Of a stretch of DNA of 24,046 nt, positions 1 to 8,923 are shown one piece after another. Position numbers and translations under genes: made by a program. The DNA comes from a virus: IMG/VR virus record IMGVR_UViG_3300044630_005339, positions 1-24,046 of that record; one strand, written 5' to 3'. Each line of letters opens with the position of its first letter. Positions within the stretch are counted from its first letter, which is position 1. Under the pieces are notes generated by a model. That model made no database searches. It saw nothing but the letters and a program-made list of their open reading frames with translations, and was not told the origin of the DNA.

Positions 1-3000
1 AAAAGATATGCTTTCGGTTCCTACTGTAAAGTCATTGATTGATACTGAATAACCTTCTCTACCAAACGTTGCTTCACCAGCGCCAAAAATTCTGTTAAGT
101 GTTTTTTCAATTTGAATTTTTACTTGAACTTTCTCATCATTAGTAATACCTGAGTTGTATCTATCAACTAATTCTTTAAGTTTTTTTAGAGAAGGTCTGT
201 TTTTAGCAGCGCGAGCTGCCTTTGCTGCTCTATCTGCTGACCACCCTTTTGACATGTAATCTTGTTGAGTAACATCGTTTCCATCAACTTGTAATCTATC
301 TGGATCTACATAATCAGGATTATTTTCTTTAACTCCCTTTATAGATCCGTCATACTGCTCAACGCCACCAGCAGGAGTTCTTGATTCCAAAGGACGATTC
401 ATAAATCTTTCAGCAATAGGTGTTGATTCAGGAAGAGTTGAATCTGGAGAAATTACTTCAGGTGCCTCTGCTTGAGGTGTAGGCGTTGGCGTTGGGGTAG
501 GCGTAGAGGTTCTCGGTATACGACCTGGTAGTTGTGTAGGTACACCAGCCTCTCTTGGAAGTGCTTGTACTGGATTTGGATCACGCTCTCTATCAGCGCG
601 AACTATTCTTTGCCATTGACGACGCATCTTTCTATCGTTATAAATTGCATCTTCAACAGCTCTTCTTTCACTAATAGAACCTCTATTGTTTAAGAAAAGC
701 ATTCTTACTGCTAATTTTTTAAATATCGGTCCACGCTGTGGCTGACCGTTTTCATCTAATACAAGATTACCTTCGTCATCTCTTATTACTGCTTGAGGGA
801 AATAAACCCATGCGTATGCTCTACGAAGTCTGTCATTTGGATTTAGTGTGTGCTCTAGGGCAACAACAGTTCCATCTCCCCAGCCTCTAAATTCATTTTC
901 TTCTCCGCCCCAATGATTAACAACATCTCCGCGACGCGCTTGATTAATTCCATCAGCAAATACAAAGTTATCTTCTTGCCATATTCTGTATGGATCGCCT
1001 TTCATCGGACGACGTCTTGCGTCTAACAAAGACTGAATACGCTGTCTAAAACCGTCTAAAGTGAAAGGGCTTCTATCTTCATCTGATACAACAAAATTAG
1101 GTGTAGGGATAGTCTCTGTTGTTCTAGAGGCAGGCTCCCCAGATGTAAATGCTCCGCTTTCTGGATTAAATCTTTCTGTGCGAATATCATTTTCTGGGAT
1201 ATTTATATTTTGTGTAGTTGGAGGCGGAGTGCTAGGAGTACTACCTGGAGGAGGAGGCGGAAGTATAATATTTCCATCTGGATCTCTTGGTAAATCTTCA
1301 ATAGGTGTTGGACCCATCGGGGCTGTAACTAAATTAAATCTTTGAGTGGGGTTATAAACTCTTCCAACTTCTAAACTTCCAGCCTGATCAGGGTTAGAAA
1401 AATTAATTGGACTTCTAGTACCATCTGGGTTGTACCATGCCCAAACTTCTTCACCTTCAATTTCTCTAAAATTAAGTATGGCTCCATCTTGAGGAGAAGT
1501 GTTAAATCTAGGAATATTAAAAGTGTTTCTAAGAGTCTCTGGGAAATCTTCTGGCATCGGGTCACTACTTCCAACGCCTTGCATCATTTCTTCCCAATAA
1601 GCTTGAGCAAACTCGTTCCAAGAATCTTGATTGCTAGGAAGTTCTATCTCAACGCTTCCAGTGTTTTCTGGCGTAGGAATAGTCTCTTTTGGATCTTCAT
1701 TAATTTTTTGAGAAGACGGAGTTTGTTTTGGTTTATTTTTGCTGTCATCAATGGAAATAACTTTAATTTTAGGCTCTATAAAAGTAACATTACCTTGATT
1801 TCTGAGATCTCTAATTTGTGCACTGAGGTTAAGCATCTTATTAAATGCCTCGTTACGAAGCACGTAAAGTTCAATCACCTCTGGGTCATTCATGGGTACA
1901 CCGTCTAAGGCTTTTTGACGAATTTTTTCTTCTAAATCTTTATACTCTTCTTCAGCTTTGGCTTTTTGATCTTCAAGTTTATTAGATGGAGAGACATCAC
2001 CTTGATTTTTAATTTCTCTATTAAGGTCGAGCATCCTATTAAATGCATCATCGCGAAGTCTGATAAGTTCAGCAATCCTCGGGTCAATAATGGGGATTCC
2101 ATCGCGAAGCATTTGACGAATTTCTTTATCTAAATCTTCATACTCTTTTCTAGCTTTGTCTCTTTGCTCCTCGAGAGGACCTTGATAGCCTGAAGGGGGA
2201 TTTCTAAATTTTTCGGGTTTAGTTGCATCACTAGGCGCAGAGTCTGAATCTGTAGAAGGATTTAGTACTCCAGTTCTCTGATCTGTGTCACCAACTTGCT
2301 CTAATTTTCTAACAAGATTTTGTAGTTTTTCAAAAAGTTGTGGACTTCTGTTGTAGTACATAACAAATCTGTACATAAAACTATTTTTTAACTCTACATC
2401 TTCAGTCCAAATAAACTCTTTCATATCTGAAGGTGGAGTAAAACCTCTTTTAGCACTTAAAACTTCTCTACGCCAAGATCTTTGCTCGGAAACAAAATCT
2501 GGATCTCTTCTACCCTCTAAATAATCTTGAGGGTTAGGAGGATTTAAAGCACCAGCAGATCCTGACTCTGGTACCTCTGCACCACGAATAACTCTTAACT
2601 GTCTTGAAGAAGTAATTTGTTCTGGGTATGCTTGCTCTTCATGACCTGGATAGTAACCACGAATAATAACTCTTGTGGGGGCTAAGTCAACTATAGTTGG
2701 TCTTCTACGATTAACAAATCTATCTCTTCCAATAGAATTTTCTACAGGAATAACATCAGTTATAACAAAGTGATCCTTTGTAATAATGTCGCCTTTTTGA
2801 AGATCTCCAGGGCCAGCATTAACAATGTACGCAGACTTAGGCTCTCCTTGTACATCGTCCTGATTAATAGGAAGTTCATTTCTAGGATTTTTAGCGTTTT
2901 CAATTAAATCATTTACAATTAATTTAGCATCTTCAGAGCCTTCTTCTGAAGTGATATCTACATTTGCTAATTCACCATTAAATTGTTTTTCTATTTTAGA

Positions 3001-5733
3001 AGTTTTTTGCTGTTCAGAAACTAAGTCTTTATCTACATCTCTAGTAGACACCTCTTTTAAGCTTGCCCGAAAGCCAGCAACTATTTTATTAAGTTGATTA
3101 ATTTTTTCAAAGACACGAGATACATCTAAGTCCTGACGTATCTCATCTAAATCTCTACCAGAAAGAGTTTTTTCATACCAAGCAATTTGTTTCTGCAATT
3201 CTGCAGTTACAGAAGCCAAAGCTTCTCTAACTTCTATCTCTTCTGAGTCGTTTGGGTTAGTAGGCAGTTTTATTTTGTCAATTGCTTTTTTAGTATTAGC
3301 ATCCAAAACCTCTGGAGTTATGTCTGACTTAGTTTCGTTATCTTCAGGTTTTATAGCAGCTAAATAATTTAAAACTGCTTCAGTTTGAGCCCAGCTCTTT
3401 CTTTGAGCAGCACGAGGTAAATCAACCCAATGACGAGTCTCATAATCATCAACATCGGAAGCCCAACGGGATGGAAAACCGTAAGTAGGAGGGGTTGAGT
3501 CTAAAAGATTTTTTACTTCTTCATAAGATTTATTATCTCTTATTGCATTTTGAATTTCTTCGCTGTAATAAGGCTCTCCTTGAAAATCTAGTGAACCTTC
3601 TAAAGCACGTAAAGCTAAACCTCTTAATCTGTTAACTTCTTCTTCGCTTACTACTGGAACAACCTCGGTATCAGTGTCTGCATTTTCTTGATCGAGAATA
3701 GCTTTTGCTTCATCCTGATCAACAGACTTAACTTGACCAGCGCGTCCCTCTTCAGCAACTTCTCTTAAGATTTCATTTGTATCTACGCCTTTAAGTTGTA
3801 GAGCGTCTCTTAAAACTTCTGAAGGGAGAGTAATCTCAACTTGCTCATCTTCATCATTTATAAAATCAAATTTACCGTAGCCAGGTAGTTCAGAAGGTTC
3901 TAGAGAACCTCTAAAAGCAAACTTAAGAGCCTCTTCATCATATTTAGTTGCTTGATACGGATCGTCTGTGTATCCAATTGGATACTCTACTCCAGTCATA
4001 TCTAAAATCGCTCTTGATTCTTCAGGAGTATCTATAGTTATAAAATTATTATTTGGATTTATAGGGTCACTATCAGGGGTGTAGTAACCTTGAGGCATTT
4101 CAACTTCTTCGTTTTCAGGAAGATAAGGTCTGTAATCACCAGACTCGTCAAATGCTGCTTTCTCTTCTTCGGTTAAACCTTCAAGCAATGCTGGGGTAAA
4201 TGTTTTTTGTTTTTCTGTAGATTCTGGCTTAACTGTTTCACCTAAATCTAAACGAGCAATTTCCTCGGAAACATCGGAACCTGCTTCACCTCTTTCAGCA
4301 TTAAGCGCATCCTGATTTTCTGTGGTACCCAAAGCACCGTCATAGATTCTTGCAACTTCTGAGTCAGCGTCTTCACCTTGCATTCTTAATGCTTGATAAA
4401 TTGCTTCAGCTTTAATATCTTGTAGTCCGCCTTCAAATCCAAGAAGTCCTCTACCATTTGCAGGCACTGACTCAATTGGGAGAAGTGCCTCTTCTAATGC
4501 ACCGACCAAATCTGCTTTACTAAATTTAAGAGCTAACTCTTTAGGATTATCTGTGGCACCTTCAACACCATCTTCGATACCTTGAGGTAAATAACCAACA
4601 AACCTATTTAACTTATAAGCACCCTCTGGGTATTGAGCCCAGCGGTTTTCAACATCATCAAATTCAGAGCCATCTTCGTTTCTTGCAAGACCTGCAAGAT
4701 CCACTTCTCTACCTCTAAGTTGGTTTTGAATCTCAAACCAATTATCAAAGTCACCGACTGAAGTTCCGTCAACTGTTGATACAGATAATTTTCTTTTTCC
4801 ATCAACATCTCTAGATATAACTGCATTAAAAGCACCATCTGTAAACTCTAAAGGATTGTTTGGGTCTGTCCTTGTCCAACCATTAGGAGCTTCAACTTTA
4901 GTAGCACTTGAAAGATCAACAATTGGATCTGACTCAGAATATTTTGCACTAGCAGGACTAAAACCATCAGCAGTAGGGTTAATAAGTGCTTTAATAAACT
5001 CGGTTGAAGTCGATGGAACTTCATAAATACTTTCATCTGGAGCTTCTATTTGAATATAACCAGGTCTTGGGGAATCAGCAACATATCTACCAGTAAAACT
5101 TTTAACATCTCCGTTTAACATTCTAAAGAACGCCCTAACAGCGCCACCCATCCAAGCAAATCTTCCTTTTAAATCACGAAGTTGTTTAGCAGCACGAGCG
5201 CGACGAGCTGCAGTAGAGTTTCCGTCACCAATTGCAGCAAGCAATGCTTCTTGAGAGACAAGACCTTGAGGTAAATTAGTCAAACGAGTAATAGCGTATT
5301 TGTATTCAACAGAATCACAAGGATTGATAATTGCACTAGCAATTAACGGCTTTGCTTCTTCAACTATATTAAAATCTGCTGTAATCCATCTTGCTTTTTG
5401 CGTTAAATAGTCTTGTAAAGAATAATTATGGCTTGCTGTGGATTTTGGATGACCTATAGGAAGTAAATCAGTATTTTTTGCATTACTAAAAGAGGTTTTG
5501 TTCTTCTGTGAAAGGGTAATAAAGTCTGATAAGTCTCTTAGAGCCTTAAAGTCTCTTTCTTTATTAGGCAAGCCAATGGTTTTTTCTAAAGATCTTTGAA
5601 CAACAGTTAAAGCATCTAGTTTAGTGACTTGACGCTCTACAGGAACATCATTATTTGAAAGACTAACAATCTCAAAAACTCTATCTCTTAAATACTGAGC
5701 CTTTATTTTTTCTTTTGAAATGTTTTTGTTCAT
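1..5733 (-). CDS. Giant virion-associated protein, C-terminus cut by window edge (>=1911 aa)
   Basis: One frame stays open from the ATG at 5733 to base 1, giving 1911 codons without a stop, so the C-terminus lies outside the window. The ATG overlaps the TAA of the upstream gene (TAATG), which suggests translational coupling. I do not recognise the family. The N-terminal ~60 residues are helical and charged. A basic segment rich in Ala and Arg lies near residues 175-200, and the motif NTDLLPIGHPKST near residue 100 resembles DNDLLPSSHPRST in the upstream 478-aa protein. The middle is acidic. Residues ~1185-1310 hold a tandem coiled-coil-like duplication. Proline-rich linkers follow near residue 1490 (PPPPPG) and 1740 (TPTPTPTPTP). 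Two Gly/Trp-rich, probably beta, segments lie between them. No signal peptide or membrane segment is seen. Its place after the portal suggests a virion or head-morphogenesis role; this is inference. Confidence 0.85.
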   Translation of the reverse strand, partial: MNKNISKEKIKAQYLRDRVFEIVSLSNNDVPVERQVTKLDALTVVQRSLEKTIGLPNKERDFKALRDLSDFITLSQKNKTSFSNAKNTDLLPIGHPKSTASHNYSLQDYLTQKARWITADFNIVEEAKPLIASAIINPCDSVEYKYAITRLTNLPQGLVSQEALLAAIGDGNSTAARRARAAKQLRDLKGRFAWMGGAVRAFFRMLNGDVKSFTGRYVADSPRPGYIQIEAPDESIYEVPSTSTEFIKALINPTADGFSPASAKYSESDPIVDLSSATKVEAPNGWTRTDPNNPLEFTDGAFNAVISRDVDGKRKLSVSTVDGTSVGDFDNWFEIQNQLRGREVDLAGLARNEDGSEFDDVENRWAQYPEGAYKLNRFVGYLPQGIEDGVEGATDNPKELALKFSKADLVGALEEALLPIESVPANGRGLLGFEGGLQDIKAEAIYQALRMQGEDADSEVARIYDGALGTTENQDALNAERGEAGSDVSEEIARLDLGETVKPESTEKQKTFTPALLEGLTEEEKAAFDESGDYRPYLPENEEVEMPQGYYTPDSDPINPNNNFITIDTPEESRAILDMTGVEYPIGYTDDPYQATKYDEEALKFAFRGSLEPSELPGYGKFDFINDEDEQVEITLPSEVLRDALQLKGVDTNEILREVAEEGRAGQVKSVDQDEAKAILDQENADTDTEVVPVVSEEEVNRLRGLALRALEGSLDFQGEPYYSEEIQNAIRDNKSYEEVKNLLDSTPPTYGFPSRWASDVDDYETRHWVDLPRAAQRKSWAQTEAVLNYLAAIKPEDNETKSDITPEVLDANTKKAIDKIKLPTNPNDSEEIEVREALASVTAELQKQIAWYEKTLSGRDLDEIRQDLDVSRVFEKINQLNKIVAGFRASLKEVSTRDVDKDLVSEQQKTSKIEKQFNGELANVDITSEEGSEDAKLIVNDLIENAKNPRNELPINQDDVQGEPKSAYIVNAGPGDLQKGDIITKDHFVITDVIPVENSIGRDRFVNRRRPTIVDLAPTRVIIRGYYPGHEEQAYPEQITSSRQLRVIRGAEVPESGSAGALNPPNPQDYLEGRRDPDFVSEQRSWRREVLSAKRGFTPPSDMKEFIWTEDVELKNSFMYRFVMYYNRSPQLFEKLQNLVRKLEQVGDTDQRTGVLNPSTDSDSAPSDATKPEKFRNPPSGYQGPLEEQRDKARKEYEDLDKEIRQMLRDGIPIIDPRIAELIRLRDDAFNRMLDLNREIKNQGDVSPSNKLEDQKAKAEEEYKDLEEKIRQKALDGVPMNDPEVIELYVLRNEAFNKMLNLSAQIRDLRNQGNVTFIEPKIKVISIDDSKNKPKQTPSSQKINEDPKETIPTPENTGSVEIELPSNQDSWNEFAQAYWEEMMQGVGSSDPMPEDFPETLRNTFNIPRFNTSPQDGAILNFREIEGEEVWAWYNPDGTRSPINFSNPDQAGSLEVGRVYNPTQRFNLVTAPMGPTPIEDLPRDPDGNIILPPPPPGSTPSTPPPTTQNINIPENDIRTERFNPESGAFTSGEPASRTTETIPTPNFVVSDEDRSPFTLDGFRQRIQSLLDARRRPMKGDPYRIWQEDNFVFADGINQARRGDVVNHWGGEENEFRGWGDGTVVALEHTLNPNDRLRRAYAWVYFPQAVIRDDEGNLVLDENGQPQRGPIFKKLAVRMLFLNNRGSISERRAVEDAIYNDRKMRRQWQRIVRADRERDPNPVQALPREAGVPTQLPGRIPRTSTPTPTPTPTPQAEAPEVISPDSTLPESTPIAERFMNRPLESRTPAGGVEQYDGSIKGVKENNPDYVDPDRLQVDGNDVTQQDYMSKGWSADRAAKAARAAKNRPSLKKLKELVDRYNSGITNDEKVQVKIQIEKTLNRIFGAGEATFGREGYSVSINDFTVGTESISF
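1786..2181 (-). repeat. Tandem ~60-aa duplication inside the giant protein
   Basis: Two adjacent coding segments, roughly 2181-1999 and 1978-1786 on the minus strand, encode similar ~60-residue units. My hand alignment gives about 31 identical positions of 60. Shared landmarks are an EEQ/EDQ start, EY-x-DL, IRQ, DG(I/V)P, DP, E(L), LR-x2-AFN-x-ML and a closing NQG(D/N)V. Both units are Lys/Glu-rich and heptad-like, so a helical hairpin or coiled coil is likely. The second copy has a three-residue insertion near its end (RDL). Confidence 0.85.
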
Positions 5734-7169
5734 TAAAAGTCACCACCAAGTTTTCTAGGTAGCAAATCTGCATCTCTACTCTCATAACCAAGTGTTGAAA
5801 GTTCTGCAGCCCTATCAAAAGGGTTTTCTCCATCTTTAACGGCTCTTAACCAAGAGGCGCGAAGGGGAGTAGTCGCTTCATAACCCATCTGGGAGTACTC
5901 TGCCATAGCAAGTATTGCTTCCTCTGGTGTTTCATAATAACTCTGGTCTTTTAATTCTACAGTTAATTCTCTATCTATATAAATCTCTTCAACTAAATCT
6001 GGAAGTTCTTTTCTTTCTTCCATATAGTTTTTAATTGCGTCTTGATTAATTAAATTGTCTGGAATAACAGCAAGACGACACTTACCTAAATCTTCAATCT
6101 CAAGTGCAACTATTTGACATACGTCGCCCTCTTCGGTTTCCTGATAAAAAACACAGTGGGCACAGATAACTCCAATTTTTGCATCTTCATTTTCTGCAGC
6201 AGGAGTGTAACCAGCCCAAACACCAACACCATCTTCATTAAATTTTCCGTGCTTTTCAACGACAGATAAAATTGCGTTAGCCAAATCTTGTTCTTCTGGA
6301 ACTAAAGCAGATGCAGTTAAAGAAGAGTTAGATTTTTTAGTGGATCGAGGATGAGACGATGGAAGTAAATCATTATCTGCTACATAAGCAGAGTTGGAAG
6401 GCTTTCCAGATTTTAAAAGTTTTAGAAACGCATTAACTCTGGCAAATGCCCAACCATTTCTAGACATACCTGGTCTGTGTGAAACAGAGTAAGCTCCAGC
6501 ACCACGACGGAAAACGGCTTTTAAAGTTCCCAGAGTAGTTTTACGACCTTTTGGAACCGTTTCATTGTGTTTAGAAACTTTTTCTTTTAAAGTTTTTTCT
6601 ACAGACTTAGAGAAAACAACTTTACGAGCAGACTTTGAACTAGAAGCAGATCCTTTTTTATTTACTTTAGAACCTTTAATTCTGTCTTTTTTAGGGGCAG
6701 GAGTTTGAGAGATAGTGCGTTTTGCAGCAGCAGTAATTGGTCCGCCACCAACCCAAGCGCGACATGTTCTAGCAGAAGCACATTTAAAATCAAATGCTTC
6801 GCAGTAACCTAACTCACCTGCTTCATCAATTGCGTCAAAAGTATCTGAGTCGCCAGTTAAACCAGACTGAATGCAGTCTTTCATTGATGGAGAAATATTA
6901 AATACAGCGCAATTACCACAACGCTGTTGTTTTGCTGTTTCAGTATCCACAGACCACTCGTCTGCAAGTGTTTGCCAATACTCTTCGTTTGGTTCTGCAG
7001 GATTTAGCGGACCATACATTGCTGTGTCTATAGCATTTTTACGATTTTTAAGATTAAGACCAATGTCTTGAGTGGGGGCAGGACAAGAAGTCTCTTCAGT
7101 TTTAACAGGTTGCTCTTGCAACTCTTGTAAAATTTTTGTAGAAGAAGTGTCAGGTGAATCAGGAGACAT
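5733..7169 (-). CDS. Post-portal structural protein with two Cys clusters (478 aa)
   Basis: This gene lies between the portal and the giant gene and overlaps both by single bases (TAATG at each end), so it belongs to the head operon. Residues ~80-145 hold a first Cys cluster: CGNC, then a single Cys, then GYCEAF-x-FKC and RTCRAWVGGG. Residues ~330-370 hold a second set: CAHC-x-FY, then DVC and GKCRL. The layout recalls metal-binding or HiPIP-like clusters, but I cannot assign a cofactor. A Lys/Ser-rich linker (about residues 150-200) leads to a conserved-looking block (about 200-280) with RRGAGAYS, WAFARVNAFL and DNDLLP. In other phages this position often holds a maturation protease or MuF-like protein, but I see no clear protease motif. 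Coding status is certain; function is open. Confidence 0.85.
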   Translation of the reverse strand: MSPDSPDTSSTKILQELQEQPVKTEETSCPAPTQDIGLNLKNRKNAIDTAMYGPLNPAEPNEEYWQTLADEWSVDTETAKQQRCGNCAVFNISPSMKDCIQSGLTGDSDTFDAIDEAGELGYCEAFDFKCASARTCRAWVGGGPITAAAKRTISQTPAPKKDRIKGSKVNKKGSASSSKSARKVVFSKSVEKTLKEKVSKHNETVPKGRKTTLGTLKAVFRRGAGAYSVSHRPGMSRNGWAFARVNAFLKLLKSGKPSNSAYVADNDLLPSSHPRSTKKSNSSLTASALVPEEQDLANAILSVVEKHGKFNEDGVGVWAGYTPAAENEDAKIGVICAHCVFYQETEEGDVCQIVALEIEDLGKCRLAVIPDNLINQDAIKNYMEERKELPDLVEEIYIDRELTVELKDQSYYETPEEAILAMAEYSQMGYEATTPLRASWLRAVKDGENPFDRAAELSTLGYESRDADLLPRKLGGDF

Positions 7170-8923
7170 TATCTTTCTTGACCTTCTACTGGAGCTTCAG
7201 TATTTTCTGGACTTAATGCGTCTTGAACTTCTGAAGGCAAAGATTCATCAGGCTTACTTGTTTCTTCAACAGGTGTGGTGCTCTCATTTGCAACATTTTG
7301 TTGATCTAAAACTTGTTGAACCTCTGGAGGTATTGGAGCAACAGAAGATGCTTGCTGCGCACCGCGAATACTTTCCATAACTTCAGGGGCAACTGCTCCA
7401 AGCATCGCCTCTGTTAATTCTGGAGTGACAGATCCCTTTTCAACCATCATTCGAATTGCAATCTCATTTGGTGAAGGTGCATCAGCGGCAGAGAACCCGT
7501 GAGCACGACGCCAAGTGTCATAAGAAACGGCACCGCGATCAAAACCTGCGTCAGCATCTGTTGCACGGTCATTACGAGTTGCAATTGCTGATGGGTCGTA
7601 CCAAACAACCATCTTCTTAACTTCTGCTTCAGGATAACCCTGAGCAATTAAATATGGTCTTAGGTAGACAACTGTTAAAGCATCTGCAATTAAAAGCATC
7701 AACGGTTCAATGTGTGCCTTATATAGAGACTCATCAATTTGAAGTGCGTTTGAGTACTTAACATTTGCTAAACCTGTAACAATATCTTTTGGAACATCTA
7801 AGCCTTGCAAAATTCTTTCTAAGACACGGTCTGCACGTTGTGCAAGCGCTGGGTCGAATGAACGCTCAAACTTAAATTGTTTAATCTTGTCGCCAAGTTC
7901 TGCTGGACCACGAATGATTAGAGGAACAACTGCTGATGCGGACTCTTCATCACGAATCGGAGTTGTCATAGCGTCCATTAATTGCTCTTCAAACTCATCC
8001 TCTGCTTCTTCAACAGTGAAACCTGGATTTAATTCATCATCAGAGTCATATGGAAAATCACCATCGCCTTGTGCGGCAACTGACAAACCATCTGGTAAAT
8101 AAAGAGCACCTGCGTTTAAGCGAGAACGTGCTGTTGCACGAAATGTTCTGTTAAGGAGGAGTAGTTCAGCACAAAGATCTAACAAACCGCGAAGTGAGGA
8201 ATCTGCTTCATCTGAGTAGCGTGGATGTGAGCGCCAAATTCTTCCAATAAAAGCATTTTTACCTAATCTAATAGATGTATTTTGATTAGCAGCACTGTTT
8301 CCTTGGCTTACTGCTTGCTCTCTTCTACCAATAACATTAAAACCACCGCGAGCATCTGCCATAACTTCATCTACAGAGCGAATATCCCAAGAATCTGGAA
8401 TACCTTGACTTGGTTTACCAGGAATATTAATTAGGTAACACTCGCCAGACACGACTAAGTTAAGTGCTGCATCTCTTAACAAACCTGACTGACCACCGTA
8501 TGCAGAATCTAAACGAGCAACTGCTCTTTCTGCAGCAGCGGCAAGTCTTTGATCTGTTACATCTGAATTTGAAACTGGAGTAGGTGATTCTGCAGGATTA
8601 TCTACACTTGCAGCAAAAATTCTAATTCTTGAAACTACAGAAGCAACTAAATTAAAAGCGTACTTAATTTCACCGATTGCGTCGTAGTATTCCCATGCTT
8701 CTGCTTGCCAACCAGATGAACCAGCAGCACGGCGAGAGCGAAATTGTTCAAACTCTCCCTTATCGTTAATTTTTATTTGAGCAGCCGCCGCAGTTAAAGA
8801 GCGAGGGGAAGAATAGTTAACAGGGATAGCTGGTTGCAAGAACAGAGACGAAGGACCTGTAATTTGAGGTTTAGAAGCGCCCGTAATTACTGATGGCTTT
8901 TCTTCTCGTCTAAAGACGCCCAC
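7169..8923 (-). CDS. Portal protein, actinophage type
   Basis: Portal subunits form the dodecameric ring at the head vertex through which DNA is packaged. The 584-aa length is usual for the family. Residues ~65-95 (WEYYDAIGEIKYAFNLVAS) match the N-terminal helix region typical of actinophage portals. The segment around 370-430 (RILQGLDVPKDIVTG, then YSNALQIDESLYKAHIEP and LMLLIADAL) matches the stem and crown region. The segment DPSAIATRNDRATDAD near 445-470 is also typical. The C-terminus is a Pro/Glu-rich tail. The start is GTG at 8923, preceded by a strong AAGGAG six bases upstream. The stop overlaps the ATG of the next gene. The assignment rests on pattern recognition. Confidence 0.88.
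   Translation of the reverse strand: MGVFRREEKPSVITGASKPQITGPSSLFLQPAIPVNYSSPRSLTAAAAQIKINDKGEFEQFRSRRAAGSSGWQAEAWEYYDAIGEIKYAFNLVASVVSRIRIFAASVDNPAESPTPVSNSDVTDQRLAAAAERAVARLDSAYGGQSGLLRDAALNLVVSGECYLINIPGKPSQGIPDSWDIRSVDEVMADARGGFNVIGRREQAVSQGNSAANQNTSIRLGKNAFIGRIWRSHPRYSDEADSSLRGLLDLCAELLLLNRTFRATARSRLNAGALYLPDGLSVAAQGDGDFPYDSDDELNPGFTVEEAEDEFEEQLMDAMTTPIRDEESASAVVPLIIRGPAELGDKIKQFKFERSFDPALAQRADRVLERILQGLDVPKDIVTGLANVKYSNALQIDESLYKAHIEPLMLLIADALTVVYLRPYLIAQGYPEAEVKKMVVWYDPSAIATRNDRATDADAGFDRGAVSYDTWRRAHGFSAADAPSPNEIAIRMMVEKGSVTPELTEAMLGAVAPEVMESIRGAQQASSVAPIPPEVQQVLDQQNVANESTTPVEETSKPDESLPSEVQDALSPENTEAPVEGQER

Follow-up and report, generated by a model that had tools for sequence, protein, structure and literature searches.

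Giant post-portal proteins in viruses of Actinobacteria as probable head-carried, multi-enzyme effectors

Introduction

Polyvalent proteins, which unite many activities in one polypeptide, are encoded by portal-adjacent genes and are predicted to ride in the virion (PMC5512222). P1 DarB is a 250 kDa protein packaged into the head via an N-terminal signal; its gene adjoins those of the portal and protease, and it is believed to enter the cell (PMC9024508). T4 Alt is a head-packaged ADP-ribosyltransferase that is injected with the DNA and modifies host proteins (PMC5512222). In the 'Gratiaviridae' gut phages, a HipA-like kinase is encoded between the portal and the major capsid protein (MCP), and its late expression led the authors to propose a role in superinfection exclusion (PMC8008677).

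The present analysis concerns a stretch of viral DNA of 24,046 nucleotides (IMG/VR record IMGVR_UViG_3300044630_005339, referred to as the window), at the left edge of which a preliminary description had pointed out a giant open reading frame (ORF) after the portal gene. The product of this gene is, in our assessment, probably a virion-packaged polyvalent effector of ~280 kDa, comprising a head-loading N-terminus, a flexible middle and a GNAT/kinase payload. The swapping of enzymes among its relatives, together with the portal-adjacent position of a giant gene, points to the pattern of polyvalent proteins as represented by P1 DarB and T4 Alt.

The giant gene and its neighbours

The window holds the first 1911 of the 2563 codons of the giant gene (1..5733, minus strand), open from the ATG to the window edge, with the 3' end outside. 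Close copies of the locus occur in three public contigs. The sister contig L003 shares a stretch of 13,988 bases with the window, in which only 4 positions differ, and holds the whole frame (L003:8256-15947), from which the C-terminus of the full-length protein of 2563 aa was read (P0004 numbering, used throughout); contig L004 covers the first 211 bases beyond the edge with 0 mismatches to L003. This near-identical complete frame, the agreement of L004 and the retention of the N-terminus in hundreds of relatives show that the frame is not due to chance. An ORF of more than 1911 codons leaving the window, as first described, is therefore real, and the 652 further residues exclude a frame that ends just beyond the edge with low-complexity sequence only. 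The part of the product encoded in the window matched nothing in PHROGs and, in Pfam, DUF465 alone and below threshold, and megablast of window:1-8923 against phages gave no match.

The portal gene (7169..8923, minus strand; 584 aa; phrog_776 portal, E 1.8e-107; 847 phage records) is followed by P0002 (5733..7169, minus strand; 478 aa), which carries a DUF5824 domain at aa 162-268 (Pfam, E 1.9e-8). The earlier description, which placed the giant ORF after the portal, is to be corrected in that the giant gene is the second one after it. TAATG overlaps chain the portal, P0002 and giant genes in this order, which suggests translational coupling of the three. P0002 is itself a mosaic, parts of which match DSL-LC01 WJZ48512, the C-terminus of WJZ48514, and WJZ48509. 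Downstream of the giant gene, L003 encodes ORFs of 213 aa and 131 aa, a protease-like protein of 1599 aa (L003:16982-21781) and then an MCP-like capsid protein whose N-terminal region is long and acidic. The 1599-aa ORF shows a weak Peptidase_S78 match, below cut-off, and long alignments with annotated capsid maturation proteases. It corresponds to a fusion of three consecutive DSL-LC01 genes (WJZ48513-48515), and Mimi and Gordonia phages divide it otherwise than DSL-LC01, as expected of a polyprotein cut at module borders.

A lineage of giant post-portal proteins with swapped payloads

The window portal is closest to that of the Actinomycetia phage DSL-LC01 (70%) and to those of large Microbacterium, Arthrobacter and Gordonia phages; DSL-LC01 comes from lake water and its predicted host is Actinomycetia (PMC10611076). 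Within a few kb after the portal, a gene of 883-3289 aa is present in 8/8 phages (DSL-LC01, Zooman, Pumpernickel, Cece, Mimi, Atuin, Phendrix and GMA2), and Sixama has two such genes, of 774 and 1285 aa. In searches of viral contigs, the N-terminus had 112 relatives, the RD-GRF module described below 238 and the DSL-LC01-type kinase 259. Complete ORFs that carry the N-terminal module numbered 68 unique sequences (median 2666 aa, largest 5188 aa), or 43 non-redundant ones spanning 1.1-5.2 thousand aa. In 39 of the non-redundant members the contig extends more than 2 kb upstream of the ORF, and 38 of these have a portal there, with a median gap of 1.2 kb. By this sequence census of relatives with an upstream portal, the giant post-portal protein is a feature of the lineage and not a curiosity of one phage, and the proteins form a large, barely described family in viruses of Actinobacteria. 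The size and position of the gene, initially considered unusual, are so only in part, since a giant gene in the post-portal slot is the rule for this phage lineage. The longest complete relative seen, of 5188 aa (L019:5036-20599), has a DSL-LC01-type kinase at aa 1656-1884. Identity of the giant as a tape measure protein was rejected because the tape measure gene of DSL-LC01 and GMA2 lies downstream of the MCP gene, among the tail genes.

The N-terminal head modules are retained among the relatives and the remainder is swapped, with clear-cut effector and anti-restriction enzymes among the payloads. The DSL-LC01-type kinase is carried by 22 of the 43 non-redundant members. The post-portal slot holds a UvrD helicase in Mimi, UvrD plus ADPrib_exo_Tox in Atuin, and a PI3_PI4_kinase match (7.2e-5) in Pumpernickel, while Sixama gp75 matches ADPrib_exo_Tox (1.7e-16). 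One relative of 3540 aa (L230:3758-14377) combines RNase_T, UvrD helicase, ArdC-N (6.9e-30) and MPTase-PolyVal (2.8e-28), and further relatives have RNase_T, NUDIX or a clear GNAT (1.9e-24). Separately, the post-portal ORF10 of GMA2 (L013:7981-10632), whose label "putative structural protein" is an annotation alone, shows a weak C-terminal match to Acb1 (anti-CBASS)/2H phosphoesterase (8e-4) and may represent a head-carried anti-CBASS enzyme.

N-terminal modules and a short recurring motif

The first 200 aa of the giant have a net charge of +10, in keeping with the basic N-terminal segment noted earlier. They begin with a DUF5824-like domain (aa 15-110; 5404..5691, minus strand), for which hhalign of 94 DUF5824-type segments against 40 giant N-termini gave a probability of 97.2 (E 2.8e-11), and BLAST matched the giant N-terminus to P0002. 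By these alignments, the first ~110 residues of the giant and the DUF5824 domain in its P0002-type neighbour are homologues, and both kinds of gene are present in 92 of the 164 loci having a DUF5824-type domain. In both protein types the domain ends with the conserved motif DLLPxxHPxST, which in the window giant reads DLLPIGHPKST (aa 89-99; 5437..5469, minus strand); in many relatives [LM]TA[SA][AG] follows directly, and the window copy is without it. The RD-GRF module (A2; Q-x-RDxxGRF-x-x-MGG plus a beta region) occupies aa 160-254 (4972..5256, minus strand), and its motif recurs in the capsid-protease polyprotein, Mimi gp79, Atuin gp74 and DSL-LC01 WJZ48507. The sharing of DUF5824-like and RD-GRF modules between the giant and neighbouring head proteins, as judged from these matches, is new here.

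A short motif, [ILMV]TA[AGS][AGS], occurs in the first 90 aa of 38/42 non-redundant portals (0.33 expected) and is absent from their remainder. It stands directly after DLLPxxHP in 24/52 P0002-type proteins (0.10 expected) and 13/32 giants (0.07 expected), counts that, like those of the portals, are not independent because the sequences within each family are related. Among other ORFs, 1/70 has the motif in its first 90 residues, and it is also found at the presumed scaffold/shell junction of MCPs. Its pattern makes it a candidate prohead-protease or loading site, as the same motif in portal, MCP and cargo points to one partner common to all three, for which the prohead protease is the simplest choice. 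The giant of the window itself has no strict match to the motif, and cleavage of that protein is therefore not claimed. It is conceivable, although we hold it only tentatively, that the DUF5824-like/DLLPxxHPxST/[LM]TA[SA][AG] segment and RD-GRF together act as a portable head-loading and processing tag that sends interchangeable effectors, including HipA/CotH-type kinases, to the capsid, and that the prohead protease cuts at the short motif in portal, capsid and cargo alike. Confirmation of the N-terminal module as a loading tag would make cargo proteins recognisable by sequence across the lineage.

The middle region

The long acidic middle, the tandem coiled-coil duplication and the TPTP/PPPP linkers of the preliminary description were all recovered. 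Residues 201-1000 (2734..5133, minus strand) have a net charge of -3 to -18 per 100 aa, and aa 300-760 are conserved in 126 relatives. The coiled-coil duplication, of ~60 aa per copy (aa ~1187-1248 and ~1253-1317; 1783..2175, minus strand), has a local score of 169 (mean 28 and maximum 64 in 500 shuffles) and a weak match to DUF465; both this and a TipAS match were rejected as coiled-coil look-alikes. A PPPPP linker lies at aa 1492-1496 (1246..1260, minus strand) and a TPTPTPTPTP linker at aa 1744-1753 (475..504, minus strand).

The C-terminal GNAT-like and kinase domains

The suggestion that this is a multi-domain protein with C-terminal enzyme domains past the edge agrees with what L003 encodes, the C-terminus being predicted to consist of a GNAT-like acetyltransferase (aa ~1900-2110), starting close to the window edge (aa 1911), and a kinase of the CotH/HipA/PI4K type (aa ~2250-2563). 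For the last ~665 residues, 18 relatives were gathered, and an AlphaFold model fed with their alignment reached a mean pLDDT of 62 and a pTM of 0.60, with lower confidence in much of the kinase; a model of the C-terminus alone (pLDDT 35) was discarded. Fold comparison matched the kinase to CotH (Z 12.9), HipA (11.0), PI4KII (11.0) and CtkA (10.0), the last also by Foldseek (E 8.5e-4), and the GNAT-like part to 1y9w (Z 9.2) and 2g3a (Z 8.9). Pfam PI3_PI4_kinase matches 16 of the 18 C-terminal relatives (best 2.8e-5), CotH matches one family member (3e-4), and the profile of the kinase family against the PDB found CtkA (0.0023) and PI4K2B (0.003). The GNAT and kinase of the window protein itself do not reach the cut-offs of Pfam (HipA_2, E 0.003-0.013). 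Searching the PDB with the C-terminus by phmmer gave no match, and in tblastn against phages the window kinase returned only chance matches to ssRNA phages (E ~6). The residues of the kinase superfamily are in place, namely the ATP-binding Lys, a Glu, the catalytic loop D/N/D..N and the metal-binding Asp. K, E, D-x4-N-x-DRH-x2-N and DN are invariant in seven aligned members, and nearly all of these positions are conserved at 90% or more in the 18; in the alignment they correspond to K2318, E2334, D2422, N2427, D2429-R-H, N2434 and D2458-N.

The kinase of DSL-LC01, Sixama and Phendrix (type I) was rejected as a direct homologue of the window kinase, as an HMM search found no link between them. 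Profile-profile comparison matched the two over the N-lobe only (68% probability, E 4.8e-5), which makes a related fold likely; the type I profile had no good match in the PDB. This kinase-like domain, also designated DAWLANWD-type (L007:8801-18667 and 259 viral-contig loci), has a G-loop GSNxGG, YVK, D-x4-N-x-D and VDxGG, has no Pfam match in DSL-LC01 and is common in giant phage proteins. A HipBA toxin-antitoxin was also rejected: the kinase domain of the window giant forms the end of a 2563-aa product with head modules, and none of the three ORFs that follow (213, 131 and 1599 aa) gave a HipB-like match.

Comparison with described systems

Like the polyvalent proteins of Iyer et al. 2017 (PMC5512222), the giant is very long and multi-domain, and is encoded near portal and virion genes, and GNAT and ART payloads occur in its family. 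Its 2563 aa hold DUF5824-like, RD-GRF, paired coiled-coil, GNAT-like and kinase parts in one chain, both enzymes being assigned by fold or profile, and its gene lies among late genes, with the portal at 7169-8923 and the protease and MCP downstream in L003. The class hallmarks ArdC-N and MPTase-PolyVal are carried by members of its family, whereas the window protein itself has a GNAT by fold only (Z 9.2). Unlike the published proteins, it has N-terminal DUF5824-like and RD-GRF modules. The kinase of that paper, moreover, is of a truncated Ser/Thr/Tyr group found mainly in (pro)phages of Verrucomicrobia-Chlamydia and Bacteroidetes, whereas that of the giant is CotH/HipA/PI4K-like; the terms "HipA" and "PI3" are absent from the text of PMC5512222.

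P1 DarB, the strongest precedent with experimental support, resembles the giant in its size of ~250 kDa and in a gene next to portal and prohead protease, and some members of the giant's family have helicases. Its loading signal, however, is shorter than 30 residues, whereas the candidate loading region of the giant is a ~300-residue, two-module segment. DarB-type helicase and methyltransferase domains had no match in the window protein, the UvrD-type helicases being those of relatives, and the comparison of the two proteins is one of size, gene place and proposed packaging, not of sequence. T4 Alt is an ADP-ribosyltransferase, whereas the window protein has no such domain and is predicted to carry GNAT and kinase; ART domains are found in the relatives Atuin gp71 and Sixama gp75. 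The 'Gratiaviridae' kinase is of the same HipA family and occupies the same late-gene slot but belongs to phages with Bacteroidetes hosts and is not described as part of a giant cargo protein (PMC8008677). The post-portal giants of actinophages (DSL-LC01 WJZ48510, Pumpernickel gp82, Zooman gp70, Cece gp68, Mimi gp77 and Atuin gp71) share the slot and the RD-GRF module, and WJZ48510 additionally has the long N-terminus of the window giant, but their payloads are unlike that of the window and their annotations go no further than hypothetical protein or DNA helicase. No prior description of the N-terminal modules, the short motif or CotH/HipA/PI4K-type kinase cargo was found in the open literature; as the search was confined to open-access papers, one may exist elsewhere.

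Proposed role and alternatives

In the proposed mechanism, the giant would be made late, alongside portal and capsid, and incorporated into the prohead. Its N-terminal ~300 residues (the DUF5824-like part ending in DLLPxxHPxST, then RD-GRF) would serve as the head-loading part, used by neighbouring head proteins too, and the protein might be trimmed near its N-terminus by the prohead protease, the gene of which follows after two small ones. The middle, acidic and rich in Pro/Thr with a coiled-coil part, would act as a flexible tether for the C-terminal payload of GNAT-like acyltransferase and CotH/HipA/PI4K-type kinase. At infection, the protein would leave with the DNA and modify host proteins before phage gene expression. 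We infer its packaging, trimming, ejection, catalysis and targets and, by analogy, its loading through the N-terminus and the delivery of its C-terminal enzymes; no virion proteomics of this phage, GMA2 or relatives was found in the open literature.

The late-gene position alone is also compatible with a role in head assembly, in which the giant would act as a scaffold inside the prohead during morphogenesis and be degraded or retained, its enzyme-like domains being secondary. A gene between portal and prohead protease/MCP, an acidic middle and modules common to head proteins, including the protease polyprotein, are all consistent with this, but the swapped payloads are typical of host takeover or counter-defence, a pure scaffold needs none, and the MCP already has a long acidic N-terminal region; we regard such a role as unlikely. 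It is improbable, too, that the giant is a late-expressed effector that stays unpackaged in the producing cell, for instance in superinfection exclusion as proposed in 'Gratiaviridae'. The slot and the kinase type are those of the latter phages, and late expression was the argument of those authors (PMC8008677), yet fusion to head-protein modules fits the entry phase, as do the ArdC-N, MPTase, helicase and exonuclease payloads of the giant's family. Swappable C-terminal enzymes near the portal are likewise known from MuF-type polymorphic toxins, which would be directed against competitors and not serve infection; as neither the window protein nor any relative scanned matched the Mu-F domain, this reading has very little to recommend it.

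A packaged polyvalent effector, by comparison, offers one testable model for a poorly annotated post-portal slot of actinophages, in which multi-enzyme effectors ride in the head, are ejected and combine a common N-terminal head module with swappable payloads. It would add a CotH/HipA/PI4K-like kinase to the list of cargo, widespread kinase cargo being new here, and would allow the HipA-like kinases that gut phages encode between portal and MCP (PMC8008677) to be read, alternatively, as head-carried cargo.

Other genes of the window

A search of the window for tRNA genes found none. Overlapping genes at window:13711-15205 (minus strand) encode a member of the histone-deacetylase superfamily (5.2e-56) and a dual-specificity phosphatase (2.6e-12), with homologues in 18 and 17 loci, respectively, of the set collected before the A4 scan. 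This predicted deacetylase and phosphatase thus co-occur with the predicted acetyltransferase and kinase of the giant, a pairing that may be coincidence. Upstream of the portal, an ORF at window:12527-13207 (minus strand) encodes an SLT/lysozyme-like transglycosylase (1.5e-19) with homologues in 38 loci of the same set, and the ORF at window:16204-16791 (minus strand) resembles an HslV-family peptidase (phrog_1040, 7.5e-24).
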